Shown: piece after piece, positions 22,477 to 26,130 of the stretch
Position numbering within the stretch: the stretch's first letter is position 1
Layout: each line of letters begins with the position of its first letter
From: Pseudobutyrivibrio xylanivorans DSM 14809
GTDB taxonomy: Bacteria; Bacillota; Clostridia; Lachnospirales; Lachnospiraceae
DNA: 64,000 bases
Reading direction: 5' to 3'
Assembly: GCF_900141825.1 (NCBI RefSeq)
Contig: NZ_FQYQ01000002.1
Location: 124,001-188,000, forward strand
Program-made: the position numbers and the translations under genes
Notes under the pieces: generated by a model
What the model saw: only the letters and a program-made list of their open reading frames with translations
Told to the model about the DNA's origin: nothing
Databases searched by the model: none

Positions 22477-23286
22477 TTATGCTTCTCTAAAGTTTTTGTT
22501 TCTGAAAAACTTGTATAGATGTGAAGATATTTTTATTTCTGTGTAAATGTCTGCGTATTCCCTTGGTGAATATTCGCTTACGAAATTCGTAGGGAATTTG
22601 CGAGTCATTCCACGTGATTTACAAAGGTCTACGGCTTTATTGTACGCGATGGCAGCCTTTGCTTCGGAAGAATATCTTCCCACTATAAAGTCTCCATTGA
22701 GATGTATTTTGGCAACGTATTTTACCTTGCCTTTTTTTTCTTCTTTTGAGACACCGTGATATTTGTTAACAAGAATGATATTGGAATATCGTAAATCCGT
22801 ATCATCTCCATTGGCAAATTTATAATCACGATCCTTTACACTATATGGCTTGATTCCATATCTACTGAGAATGTTGTACTGCATTCCGTAATCGCTCACA
22901 AACATGTGGCCTCCACGGTTCTGTATCTTGTGAGTCGAGTAGTAGAACAAGTCATCATTATCAAATTTAAGGACTGTAGATGGGTCCAAATAATAAACAA
23001 AGTAATTTCGATGAAGGTAAACAGGGTTTTTAATGTAAATGTTATTGTCCCTGTAATTAATAAGAGTTACACATTTTTCAAATGGTAATTCTTTTATTGA
23101 ATTCTGATAGGAAAGTAAAGTGATTTTTTTATCCTTTAGAATTTTCCACGCTTCTTTATAGGCGCGATTACATTGAGCCTCGGTGTTAAAGCTTCCGATG
23201 CTGATGTGCTTACCATTGTAGGTTATGTTACCTCGATAATAGGTAGTGCCATTCTTACGTGTTGCTTGATAAACTCCAGGCTTCAT
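22477..23286 (-). CDS. AP2-domain protein with degenerate HNH-like middle
   Basis: This 269-residue basic protein has two AP2-like DNA-binding segments. One is at ~4-50 (GVYQATRKNGTTYYRGNI, then SIGSFNTEAQCNRAYKEA). The other is at ~177-225 (YHGVSKEEKKGKVKYVAKI, then VGRYSSEAKAAIAYNKA). Between them, NGDDTDLRYSNIILVN resembles the Asn-rich end of HNH homing endonucleases of the AP2 type, but the expected DHIDG-like His motif is not visible. It may be a former mobile-intron-type endonuclease now used only for DNA binding. A good GGGGAGG site supports the start. It is alone on this strand between ilvC and azlC. Confidence 0.6.
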   Translation of the reverse strand: MKPGVYQATRKNGTTYYRGNITYNGKHISIGSFNTEAQCNRAYKEAWKILKDKKITLLSYQNSIKELPFEKCVTLINYRDNNIYIKNPVYLHRNYFVYYLDPSTVLKFDNDDLFYYSTHKIQNRGGHMFVSDYGMQYNILSRYGIKPYSVKDRDYKFANGDDTDLRYSNIILVNKYHGVSKEEKKGKVKYVAKIHLNGDFIVGRYSSEAKAAIAYNKAVDLCKSRGMTRKFPTNFVSEYSPREYADIYTEIKISSHLYKFFRNKNFREA

Positions 23287-23354: not shown

Positions 23355-24086
23355 ATGAATAATTCTATGATTAGCACCAAAACATTAGCTTATAGAGAGG
23401 GTACCAAAGACGGTGTTCCAATAGCACTGGGATATTTCGCTGTGGCCTTTTCTCTTGGCATTCTTGCGAGAAATGCAAATTTCACTCCGCTGCAGGGATT
23501 TATCAATTCATTTTTGAATCATGCCAGCGCAGGAGAGTATGCAGTTTACACTGTTGTGGCTGCCGGGGCCAGCTATGTGGAAATGGCCATTATGACTTTA
23601 GTTGTAAATGCAAGATACCTGCTTATGTCCACAGCTCTCAGCCAGAAATTTGATTCTAAGACATCCATGCTTCACAGAATGTGTGTAGGCTTCACTGTGA
23701 CTGATGAATTATTCGCAATTACGATAAAACGACCGGGTCATATTGAGCCCTTCTATAATTACGGAGCTTTTATTATAGCTGCTCTTGGCTGGTGTTTTGG
23801 AACCTCCTGCGGAATCATTGCAGGAGAACTGATGCCATTGAGACTTGTCAGTGCATTTTCAGTTGCATTGTATGGAATGTTTTTGGCCTGCATCATGCCT
23901 GAGGCTAGAAAGCACAGAATTGTAGCAGTATTGATTATCATTAGTTTTGTTCTAAGTTATATTGCATCGAGAGTATCGCTATTTGCAGGCATTTCTTCTG
24001 GAACTAAAACTATTATTCTTACAGTAGTTATTGCATCTATTGCTGCTATAGCATTTCCACATCCGGAGGAAGAGGACGATGACTAA
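23355..24086 (+). CDS. azlC: AzlC family branched-chain amino acid exporter, large subunit
   Basis: This 243-residue membrane protein has several hydrophobic segments and the family-typical start GVPIALGYFAVAFSLGILAR followed by SFLNHASAGEYA and NARYLLMSTAL. Together with AzlD it exports branched-chain amino acids and their analogues. The stop overlaps the azlD start by eight bases, indicating translational coupling. No clear Shine-Dalgarno site precedes either ATG 23355 or ATG 23367. Closeness to ilvN-ilvC suggests an overflow function. Confidence 0.88.
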   Translation: MNNSMISTKTLAYREGTKDGVPIALGYFAVAFSLGILARNANFTPLQGFINSFLNHASAGEYAVYTVVAAGASYVEMAIMTLVVNARYLLMSTALSQKFDSKTSMLHRMCVGFTVTDELFAITIKRPGHIEPFYNYGAFIIAALGWCFGTSCGIIAGELMPLRLVSAFSVALYGMFLACIMPEARKHRIVAVLIIISFVLSYIASRVSLFAGISSGTKTIILTVVIASIAAIAFPHPEEEDDD

Positions 24087-24384
24087 AACATACATTTATA
24101 TATTGGTAGCAGGTATAGTTAGTACCATTATCAGAGTGCTCCCAGTAACAGTATTTAGAAAACCTATAAAGAATCGCTTTGTAAGGTCATTTCTTTATTA
24201 TGTGCCATATGTGACACTTGCAGTCATGACTTTTCCAGCCATCATTGATGCCACACAAAGTAAAATATCAGGAATATTTGCACTTGTCTGCGGCACCATA
24301 GCAGCCCTGCTGAATCAGAGTTTATTCAAGGTAGCCTGTATCTGCTGTGCAGTAGTGTTTATAAGTGAATTAGTTTTATGTTAA
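24079..24384 (+). CDS. azlD: AzlD family branched-chain amino acid exporter, small subunit
   Basis: This 101-residue protein has three to four membrane segments, with the family pattern RVLPVTVFRKPI and FLYYVPYVTLAVMTFPAI. It is the small partner of AzlC. An in-frame GAGGAAGAGGACG stretch in the end of azlC serves as its ribosome site. A terminator follows at once. Confidence 0.85.
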   Translation: MTKTYIYILVAGIVSTIIRVLPVTVFRKPIKNRFVRSFLYYVPYVTLAVMTFPAIIDATQSKISGIFALVCGTIAALLNQSLFKVACICCAVVFISELVLC

Positions 24385-24394
24385 GAAAATCTTA

Positions 24395-24424
24395 GGTCCA
24401 GCTTTTAAGGCTGGACCTTTTTTG
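24395..24424 (+). terminator. Intrinsic terminator after azlD
   Basis: GGTCCAGC and GCTGGACC form a perfect 8-bp stem, then six or more T. It lies directly before the palindrome array. Confidence 0.92.
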
Positions 24425-24426
24425 GA

Positions 24427-24814
24427 TTTTCAATATATGGGAGTTTAGGTTCTGTATTGAAAAAAAATAGAGGGGATTTTCAATATAGAAGAGTATATTT
24501 TCTATATTGAAAAAAATAAGAGGATATTTTCAATATAGAGTAGATTTGTTTGTATATTGAAAAAATGTGGGTGGAAATTTTCAACAGAGAAAAGAAATGT
24601 TCTTATATTGAAAAAATGAGCAAATTATTTTCAACAGAGGAAGAAAAAGTTCCTATATTGAAAATCCAAGAGATATATTTTCAATAGAGGAAGAAAAAGT
24701 GCCTCTATTGAAAATCCAGGAGATATATTTTCAATAGGGAAAGAAAAAGTGGCTATATTGAAAATCTAGGGAATTTATTTTCAACAGAATAAGATATCAT
24801 CCATATATTGAAAA
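24427..24814. repeat. Array of eight 37-bp palindromes at a 50-bp period
   Basis: Units start at 24427, 24477, 24527, 24578, 24628, 24678, 24728 and 24778. Each is a 13-base left arm (TTTTCAATATAGA or near), an 11-base loop, and a 13-base right arm (TCTATATTGAAAA or near). Spacers of 13 bases (one of 14) are themselves related and purine-rich, so the whole 50-bp block was duplicated. Unit 2 has perfect arms. Unit 6 also has perfect arms but with two paired changes (TTTTCAATAGAGG with CCTCTATTGAAAA). Units 4, 5 and 8 carry CAACA in the left arm only. The array fills most of the 606-base gap between azlD and chvE. It contains no gene and is unlike CRISPR because spacers are short and similar. 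Confidence 0.92.
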
Positions 24815-24990: not shown

Positions 24991-26130
24991 ATGAAAAAAA
25001 GAGTTCTTAGTTTAATGCTCACTGCGGTGATGGCTATGGGATTAGCAGTTGGATGTGGACCTGCTGATACAGGTGCTCCAGCCGACACAGCAGCAGATGC
25101 TGCTACAGAGACAACAGATGAAGGTGGCTCAGCAGCTTCTACAGGAAAGAAGGTCGCAGTAGCAATGCCTACACAGTCTTCTGAGAGATGGATTAATGAT
25201 GGTAGCAACATGAAGGAAAAGCTTGAGGCTCTTGGCTATGAAGTAGACCTTCAGTACGCTGAGGATGATGTACAGGCTCAGGTTTCTCAGATTGAAAACA
25301 TGATTGCTGCAGGTGCTGATTGCTTAGTTATCGCAGCTGTTGATTCATCAGCTCTTGTAAACGTAGAGGCACAGGCAAAGGAAGCTGGTATTCCTATTAT
25401 CGCTTATGATCGTCTTCTTATGGACACAGATGCTGTTAGCTACTATGCAACATTCGATAACAAGGGTGTTGGTACAGCAATTGGTAAGTACATTGAGGAG
25501 TCTAAGGATCTTGCAAATGCAACAGATTCTTATACAATCGAGTTCTTCATGGGCTCTCCAGATGATAACAACGCTGTAATGCTTTACAACGGACTTATGG
25601 AAGTTCTTCAGCCATATCTTGATAATGGAACATTGGTATGTAAGTCAGGCAGAACATCTTTCGAGGATACATGTATTCTTAGATGGTCTCAGGAAGGTGC
25701 TCAGAAGAACTGTGAAGATTATCTTACAGGTTTCTATGCTAACGACAAGTTAGATATCTGCGCTACAGCTTTTGATGGTTTCGCTTATGGATGTAAGGCA
25801 GCTCTTGAGGGAGCAGGCTACAAGGTAGGCGAGGATTGGCCACTTATCACAGGCCAGGATGCTGAGCTTATGGCTACAAAGAACATCATTGCTGGTTCTC
25901 AGACAATGTCTATCTACAAGGATACACGTCTCCTTGCTGACAAGTGCGTAACAATGGTTCAGGCAGTTCTTGAAGGCACAGAGCCAGAAATCAACGATAA
26001 AGAGCAGTATGACAATGGAAAGCTTGTAGTTCCTTCATACCTCTGCACACCTGTTGCAGTTGATAAGGACAACTACAAAGAAATCATTGTAGATGGTGGT
26101 TACTATACAGAAGAGCAGTTAGCAGACTAA
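24991..26130 (+). CDS. chvE: Multiple-monosaccharide ABC transporter substrate-binding lipoprotein
   Basis: This 379-residue protein has a lipoprotein signal peptide (GLAVGC, lipid Cys 22), a linker rich in Ala, Asp and Thr, and a type I periplasmic-binding fold. The start VAVAMPTQSSERWINDGSNM, the middle LDICATAFDGFAYGCKAALEGAGY and the end VVPSYLCTPVAVDKDNYKEI are typical of ChvE/XylF-like sugar receptors for xylose, glucose, galactose or arabinose. The codon bias suggests high expression. It begins the operon with the ATPase and permease genes. A REP-like hairpin after it may let it be made in excess. Confidence 0.9.
   Translation: MKKRVLSLMLTAVMAMGLAVGCGPADTGAPADTAADAATETTDEGGSAASTGKKVAVAMPTQSSERWINDGSNMKEKLEALGYEVDLQYAEDDVQAQVSQIENMIAAGADCLVIAAVDSSALVNVEAQAKEAGIPIIAYDRLLMDTDAVSYYATFDNKGVGTAIGKYIEESKDLANATDSYTIEFFMGSPDDNNAVMLYNGLMEVLQPYLDNGTLVCKSGRTSFEDTCILRWSQEGAQKNCEDYLTGFYANDKLDICATAFDGFAYGCKAALEGAGYKVGEDWPLITGQDAELMATKNIIAGSQTMSIYKDTRLLADKCVTMVQAVLEGTEPEINDKEQYDNGKLVVPSYLCTPVAVDKDNYKEIIVDGGYYTEEQLAD

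Follow-up and report, generated by a model that had tools for sequence, protein, structure and literature searches.

What does a regular run of palindromes do between azlD and the gene of a sugar-binding protein in Pseudobutyrivibrio xylanivorans DSM 14809, and how did it come to lie there? The locus belongs to contig C27 of the 3.42-Mb genome (G000), within the stretch of 64,000 nucleotides (contig positions 124001-188000) that was analysed as a whole and that we call the window. The original prediction described eight 37-bp dyads recurring every 50 bp, with one step of 51, and saw in them a possible platform for a DNA-binding protein or a possible source of hairpins. The comparison of related genomes, copy numbers and neighbours that it proposed turned up more arrays, other words and a linked gene family.

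The array downstream of azlD

The unit coordinates confirm the described geometry. The array, to which no strand is assigned, spans 24427..24814 and carries the word TTTTCAAT/ATTGAAAA in alternating orientation, its dyads lying at 24427..24463 (unit 1), 24477..24513 (unit 2), 24527..24563 (unit 3), 24578..24614 (unit 4), 24628..24664 (unit 5), 24678..24714 (unit 6), 24728..24764 (unit 7) and 24778..24814 (unit 8). The steps between them are 50, 50, 51, 50, 50, 50 and 50 bp, so that unit 4 stands after the only 51-bp step. The arms are perfect over 14 bp in unit 2 and, counting one base outside the dyad, also in unit 6; each of the other six units has at least one unpaired position within 13. 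As had been noted, positions 10 and 13 of the arms are not the same in units 2 and 6, and the difference is present in both arms. Among the TTTTCAAT units, arm complementarity extends to 9-14 bp in places.

Upstream lies azlD (24079..24384, + strand, PF05437), followed by a terminator-like hairpin (24394..24418, +), in agreement with the earlier statement that the array is located after a terminator. A similar terminator-like hairpin is found in G009, a genome that has no array at azlD. The downstream neighbour is the gene of a sugar-binding protein (24991..26130, +, PF13407), originally called chvE. The array was found by a detector that makes no assumption on the arms, and block shuffles used as controls gave 0. 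In addition, the pattern TTTTCAAYA-N19-TATTGAAAA has 23 matches in the G000 genome (14 forward, 9 reverse), all of them inside three arrays, and its reversed control has none there.

A protein of 269 residues encoded nearby (22477-23286, - strand), whose two repeats resemble AP2 on visual inspection, was weighed as the binding factor of the array and dropped: it adjoins azlC throughout the genus, whether or not the array is present. Pfam, NCBIfam and PDB sequences gave no significant match to it, and a PF00847 search of the G000 genome gave none either. An Rfam scan of the window returned a tmRNA gene alone (RF00023, 56875-57216, +), and the same scan of 13 loci returned a tRNA in one and nothing else.

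Conservation of half-site words

Pooled over 17 arrays and 140 units, arm complementarity amounts to 0.89-0.98 over eight positions and to 0.18-0.56 outside them. Identity between units is 0.81-1.00 for the words, 0.33-0.74 for the loops and 0.27-0.80 for the spacers, and the near-constant length of loops and spacers seen in the window holds across the arrays compared. These pairing and identity sets leave out C10atg, with its two badly paired units, and keep some loosely matching end units.

The paired differences between units 2 and 6 had been taken as a sign that symmetry itself is selected, both arms changing together. Our results do not sustain this reading. When the right arms were dealt out among the units of the window array, complementarity was 86.0 +/- 2.1, as compared to 87 within the real units, and 14 of the 17 arrays, the window included, show no within-unit excess of pairing; block-wise switches of the word occur in the other three (G012, G020C11 and G020C16a). 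Moreover, pairing across the spacer is, over all arrays pooled, as good as pairing within the unit.

The comparison of sister species locates the constraint. Words had changed at 5 of 372 sites and loops plus spacers at 80 of 746 (Fisher p 6e-10), a count that comprises three G020/G012 arrays, two of them partial (C16a from unit 2 on; C15 over its first 245 bases, with no alignment beyond), together with two window units, and in which misaligned units would inflate the loop figure. The gene-less array C16a by itself gives 4 of 152 for the words versus 37 of 301 for loops and spacers. For the window alone, the words of G000 and G005 agree at all 32 positions and the loops differ at 6 of 42, as compared to 49 differences among 298 four-fold sites of azlC, azlD and a portion of chvE. 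Words being far less changed than loops and spacers, the half-sites are held by selection while the loops drift. Each half-site is conserved by itself, and not through hairpin covariation.

These figures bear on the idea that the array is a neutral minisatellite or a decayed mobile repeat with no present role, which the original prediction had named, in the form of random arm decay or a minisatellite that keeps no symmetry, as the outcome that would speak against it. Unit number does change, from eight at the azlD end in G000 to two in G005 (the counterparts of units 1 and 8, respectively) and from 11 units in G013 to one in G017, as such a repeat would do. However, words far tighter than loops in arrays common to sister species, and lengths that are nearly fixed, make a repeat with no present role very improbable.

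Helical phasing and position between genes

The step of 50 bp had been thought to lie close to whole helical turns, and the periods of 15 words extend the observation: they fall at 50-54, 63-64, 74-75, 83.4-83.5 and 90 bp and cluster near whole turns. A common divisor of 10.45 bp fits them best, and its offset is close to zero (R 0.75). The fit has p ~0.0002 at 10.5 bp, independence assumed, and 0.0004 both at 10.0 and at 11.0 bp; for the seven periods above 55 bp alone, p is 0.055 at 10.5 bp. The set keeps the worst outlier, the ATATGA array of G003 (period 90), which is probably another kind of array. Since some words may share ancestry, the fit is to be read as support and not as proof.

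Many arrays stand between the 3' end of one gene and the next gene. Based on crude longest-ORF calls, the neighbours of 28 arrays, orthologous pairs included, are 19 tandem, 5 convergent, 0 divergent and 4 unclassified; the convergent call at L359 rests on an ORF of masked bases, and its real neighbours make it tandem, changing the counts to 20, 4 and 0. No array among the 24 classified therefore occupies a divergent gap, while gaps of at least 150 bp sampled from the same genome comprise 66 tandem, 8 convergent and 19 divergent ones.

Arrays at gene 3' ends might act as RNA, the untranslated 3' part of a transcript forming successive hairpins that a protein binds or processes, and the folding z-score of -8.7 points in the same direction. 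Covariation within units is absent, however, and the sense-strand mismatches counted in 12 tandem arrays (9 G-T, 19 C-A and 18 others) show no preference for G-U wobble, which speaks against RNA hairpins. Pooled stems stop at 8 bp around loops of ~20, the period fits the DNA helix, and in the window a terminator-like hairpin precedes the array. We regard an RNA role as very unlikely. The same lack of covariation and of G-U preference counts against the hairpin source that was first suggested. Of the functions originally proposed, the phased DNA-binding platform stands as the best reading, in keeping with the conserved words, the nearly fixed lengths and the phasing; selected arm pairing and hairpin supply are not supported.

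Copies of the same word

Besides the window array, G000 holds two further TTTTCAAT arrays: a gene-less one of six units (C10:351257-351544) and one of seven units (C19:127078-127415) that lies ~10 bp after the end of a linked gene, gene and array together occupying G000:C19:126306-127415. The single 51-bp step is the third step in all three arrays, and unit 4 of the window is 86% identical to unit 4 of C19 over the inner 21 bp. Given this common step and the matching unit, the three arrays look like copies of one multi-unit ancestor rather than independent growths. The window array is most likely a dispersed gene-less copy of the TTTTCAAT family, and the C10 copy likewise. The cognate nuclease-like gene had escaped the original prediction because it is located outside the window. 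None of ATG, GTG and TTG occurs in its open frame ahead of codon 78, so that the gene may be poorly expressed. In three linked genes of G000, L042:4304, L474 and L476, these start codons are missing near the expected start and an ATA follows GGAGG by 8-9 nt, which makes weak or non-standard initiation possible at these loci.

G005 keeps only a two-unit site and a one-unit site of this word. It has no linked gene at the C19 site, and arrays of other words occupy its C10 and C19 sites. Such a remnant would fit arrays that dwindle once their protein is missing, a reading qualified by the presence of at least eight linked-family genes elsewhere in the G005 genome. Farther afield, a scan of GTDB contigs with the pattern gave at least 115 stretches; among the matches listed, 166 loci were checked, and two units in register were found, G000's own aside, only in L132 (P. 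ruminis CF1b). The viral contigs that match the pattern hold isolated units and no arrays.

Arrays of other words in the genus

The same array design occurs with other 8-bp words in G000 and its relatives. At the azlD end, G003 has five units of a different word (TACTATCT type), and G009, G014 and G022 have the next gene without the array. Downstream of nuoI, for which 23 genomes were listed, arrays or units of five words are carried by G000, G005 (by eye), G013, G016, G017 and G020, while G012, the sister of G020, has no array. When the filled nuoI-hypF interval of G020 (L237) is set against the empty one of G012 (L245), AATAATA looks, by eye, possibly duplicated at the two insert ends.

TACTRYC arrays account for 51 matches in G000 and 68 in G019, against 0-4 per genome in the reversed control; matches are found in 25 of 29 genomes of the genus, about half of these being no higher than the control. 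GACTATA arrays occur in 6 of the 29. In contiguous samples, the strict detector called four arrays in 400 kb of G000:C10, one in 200 kb of G012, one in 400 kb of G003 and G008, none in 220 kb of G005 and none in 271 kb of contig starts from 19 other members of the genus; a few more appear when the settings are relaxed. A 291-kb sample of contig starts from the genus likewise gave no array at the strict setting. Other genera, sampled over 312 kb, gave none with the strict detector and one, in G056, with a looser setting.

Some arrays are part of larger structures. The TACTACCT arrays of L340-L348 (G000 contigs C10, C17, C19, C21, C23, C30, C54 and C56) are enclosed in a larger element that is dispersed and contains nested hairpins; AGAGGTTTAG...CTAAACCTCT bound several of its copies, and several are found at contig ends; a tRNA gene (L340:2424-2495, -) stands near the end of one copy. 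In G005, L436:19600-20000 combines a ACCCGTAA array (period 63) with a single ATGCATCC-type dyad, and the flanking motifs resemble, by eye, those of the G000 TACTACCT element, as if one frame held different words. The ATATGA array of G003 exists in two copies (L445:10205-10390 and L441:3-188), the first adjoining a gene that looks ParA-like by eye (L445:9384-10196); these arrays are probably a partition site outside the present family.

A gene family linked to the arrays

Comparison of neighbours revealed that one protein family without a Pfam entry adjoins arrays of TACTACCT, TACTATCT, ATGCATCC, GACTATAT and TTTTCAAT, and further members were collected by a profile search of the DNA under study. 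Fourteen genes could be counted regardless of arrays: three on 400 kb of G000:C10, one on the G008 stretch, one each in G016 and G028 loci that had been included for the sake of other genes, and eight reached by homology from G000, G054, G056, G107, G139 and G247. L363 and L452 had first been met as array neighbours and were counted since the listing covered all homologs in the contiguous stretches concerned. Of the 14, 13 adjoin an array as identified by the chain detector or by counting exact 7-mers; for the remaining one (L365) the array was recognised by eye. For 11 of the 14 genes, one 7-mer occurs five or more times without mismatch, in both orientations, in one of two 700-bp stretches; in the control this was so for 22 of 1680 single stretches, true arrays being present in some of them. 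Irregular arrays make up five of the 14, namely L474, L476, L481 and L366/L367 (7-mer counts 5, 5, 5 and 6) and L365 (0, seen by eye only), and the chain detector misses all five.

Where gene-linked copies were sought, that is, for words other than GGCAGTGC, TTATCA and ACCCGTAA, gene-less and gene-linked copies of one and the same word were found for TTTTCAAT, TACTACCT and GCATATAA in G000, for TACGGTTC in G056 and for TACTATCT and GACTATAT in G020. The GCATATAA copies of G000, at L425 and L475, both have a period of 74. Similar words tend to go with proteins of higher identity (Mantel r 0.48, p 0.0002, n 19), a correlation that is lost once pairs above 45% identity are removed (r 0.13, p 0.09). 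Matches to the linked protein were obtained in 101 of 295 related genomes and in 28 of 29 of the genus, with at most eight candidates scored per genome and with weak matches that may be helicase-fused relatives.

It could be argued that the arrays are a regulatory or insulating platform of the chromosome for a host DNA-binding protein and that the nuclease-like gene is just a frequent neighbour. The words are conserved in the gene-less array C16a too, and many arrays sit past the 3' end of one gene and ahead of the next. On the other hand, words differ between close species at one site (at the XRE site, TTTTCAAT in G000 and TTATCA in G005), several words coexist per genome, and all 14 genes counted regardless of arrays adjoin one, a single case being by eye only. 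We consider a host platform unlikely, albeit the most serious of the alternatives.

A nuclease-like domain in the linked protein

The linked protein, of ~250-275 residues, consists of an N-terminal region and a C-terminal PD-(D/E)XK nuclease-like domain. RSKSE, YE, PDF and EH-G are invariant in the ten members first read, as are E160, D191, E206 and K223 (10 of 10); L476, one of nine members read afterwards, has no RSKSE motif (1 of 19 proteins). The lysine is absent from its usual ExK position, the sequence there being E206-H-F/L. A Pfam scan of the ten members and NCBIfam gave no significant family. Among PADLOC profiles, HEAT_CxxC_PDDEXK matches 6 of the 10 members (best E 4.6e-6) and PDC-S68 all 10, and PDC-S69 also matches.

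The domain is common to the linked proteins and to large helicase-fused proteins, and hhalign pairs it with C-terminal domains of viral proteins (E 2e-34). A model of the homologous viral domain (pLDDT 82) weakly resembles R2, TnsA, XisH and other restriction-like folds, with Foldseek E values above 0.01 for R2 and TnsA and none below 0.001. The linked protein is a putative nuclease, with a candidate PD-(D/E)XK-like domain that may be catalytic.

Viral and phage records contain large relatives fused to helicases, and the detector called no array beside them; such relatives also occur in eight plasmid records. A full-length homolog of the linked protein is present in L482 (MT839528.1, a fecal phage record marked as unverified); downstream of it lies an irregular run of GCAAC/GTTGC, which is not called by the detector.

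Comparison with described systems

The organisation most resembles that of REPINs and RAYTs, in which, as outlined in PMC3116915, each repeat family has a gene with an adjoining cluster and dispersed gene-less extragenic copies, several families share a genome and coevolution of protein and repeat is suspected. Here too, repeats beside a gene and dispersed gene-less copies go together for six words in G000, G020 and G056. However, RAYTs are Y1 (HUH) transposases, whereas the linked proteins are PD-(D/E)XK-like with no Pfam family in ten members, and the REP palindromes characterised in PMC3733652 are of 20-40 bp and tagged GTAG or CGTC, in contrast to the 8-bp words and long phased arrays described here; among the units listed, neither tag is present at the unit ends.

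TIGR arrays offer a second parallel. As described in PMC12045711, dual repeats of 8-12 nt alternate with variable stretches of fixed length, mostly in 5-15 units, beside one protein gene, and the repeats stay the same within one locus while differing from locus to locus. Our arrays share this layout and this pattern of constancy, which raises the possibility that the stretches between words guide the nuclease-like protein. Tas proteins carry a Nop domain, and TIGR spacers are mostly 9 nt, with units giving rise to 36-nt RNAs. In our case no Nop family came up when ten members were scanned with Pfam, each of the two words is the reverse complement of the other and periods are 50-84 bp. Furthermore, the point changes by which the loops differ are about as frequent as those at four-fold sites in the G000-G005 comparison given above, and the two window loops tried had no exact match in viral contigs. 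A TIGR-like guide array is accordingly very doubtful.

Other repeat systems were compared as well. CRISPR arrays consist of direct repeats of 24-48 bp with unrelated spacers, unlike 8-bp words in alternating orientation whose neighbouring loops are in many cases related by point changes. MITE-like repeats and BIMEs are, like our arrays, dispersed, intergenic and palindromic, and some TACTACCT arrays do lie within the larger dispersed element of L340-L348, but the arrays studied here consist of phased words in which chiefly 8 bp are conserved. Each 43-bp repeat of F-plasmid sopC contains an inverted repeat. Twelve such repeats, with their ParB-binding sites, form sopC (PMC8465637), and our arrays share with sopC/parS a tandem arrangement beside the gene of a (here putative) binding protein. 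They differ in the nuclease-like nature of that protein and in the many arrays and words per chromosome, and no ParA or ParB was found by Pfam among 28 array-near proteins; the ParA-like gene of the G003 ATATGA array was noted by eye.

The REPIN-RAYT model fails on the protein and the type of repeat, and TIGR on the Nop domain, and hence we place the arrays under neither. They are therefore called a new kind of system, REPIN-RAYT-like in its apparent organisation. In the literature searched, no described system of this arrangement was found.

A model for word-specific arrays

The findings presented here lead us to favour, with reasonable though far from full confidence, a model in which each family would consist of a short nuclease-like protein beside an array of its own 8-bp word, the window array being a gene-less copy. 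The words are conserved and nearly fixed in spacing, and we infer that the protein binds them as double-stranded half-sites and that bound copies stack along the array at whole-turn spacing. With gene linkage, dispersal and 3'-end positions being observed, the nuclease-like domain would, now or formerly, have cut DNA so as to copy arrays to new places, and the new copies would land at the 3' ends of genes. Copying and maintenance of the arrays may be REPIN-like, as proposed for RAYTs and REPINs. It seems somewhat more probable than otherwise that we are dealing with an unreported class, in which nuclease-like proteins with private 8-bp words build and maintain helically phased arrays next to their own genes and, elsewhere, at the 3' ends of other genes, several codes being present on one chromosome. 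A bolder form of this reading, in which the variable stretches serve as guides, we hold to be very improbable.

If this is true, these bacteria would have found, independently, another way of doing what REPINs and RAYTs do, by means of a compact gene and a DNA code with copies spread over the chromosome. The many pairs of word and protein to be expected in the genomes with matches (101 of 295) would show how specificity for 8 bp evolves, and the phasing of the arrays yields a clear structural prediction. Should the protein prove to be an active site-specific nuclease, the family would also represent a new family of tools.
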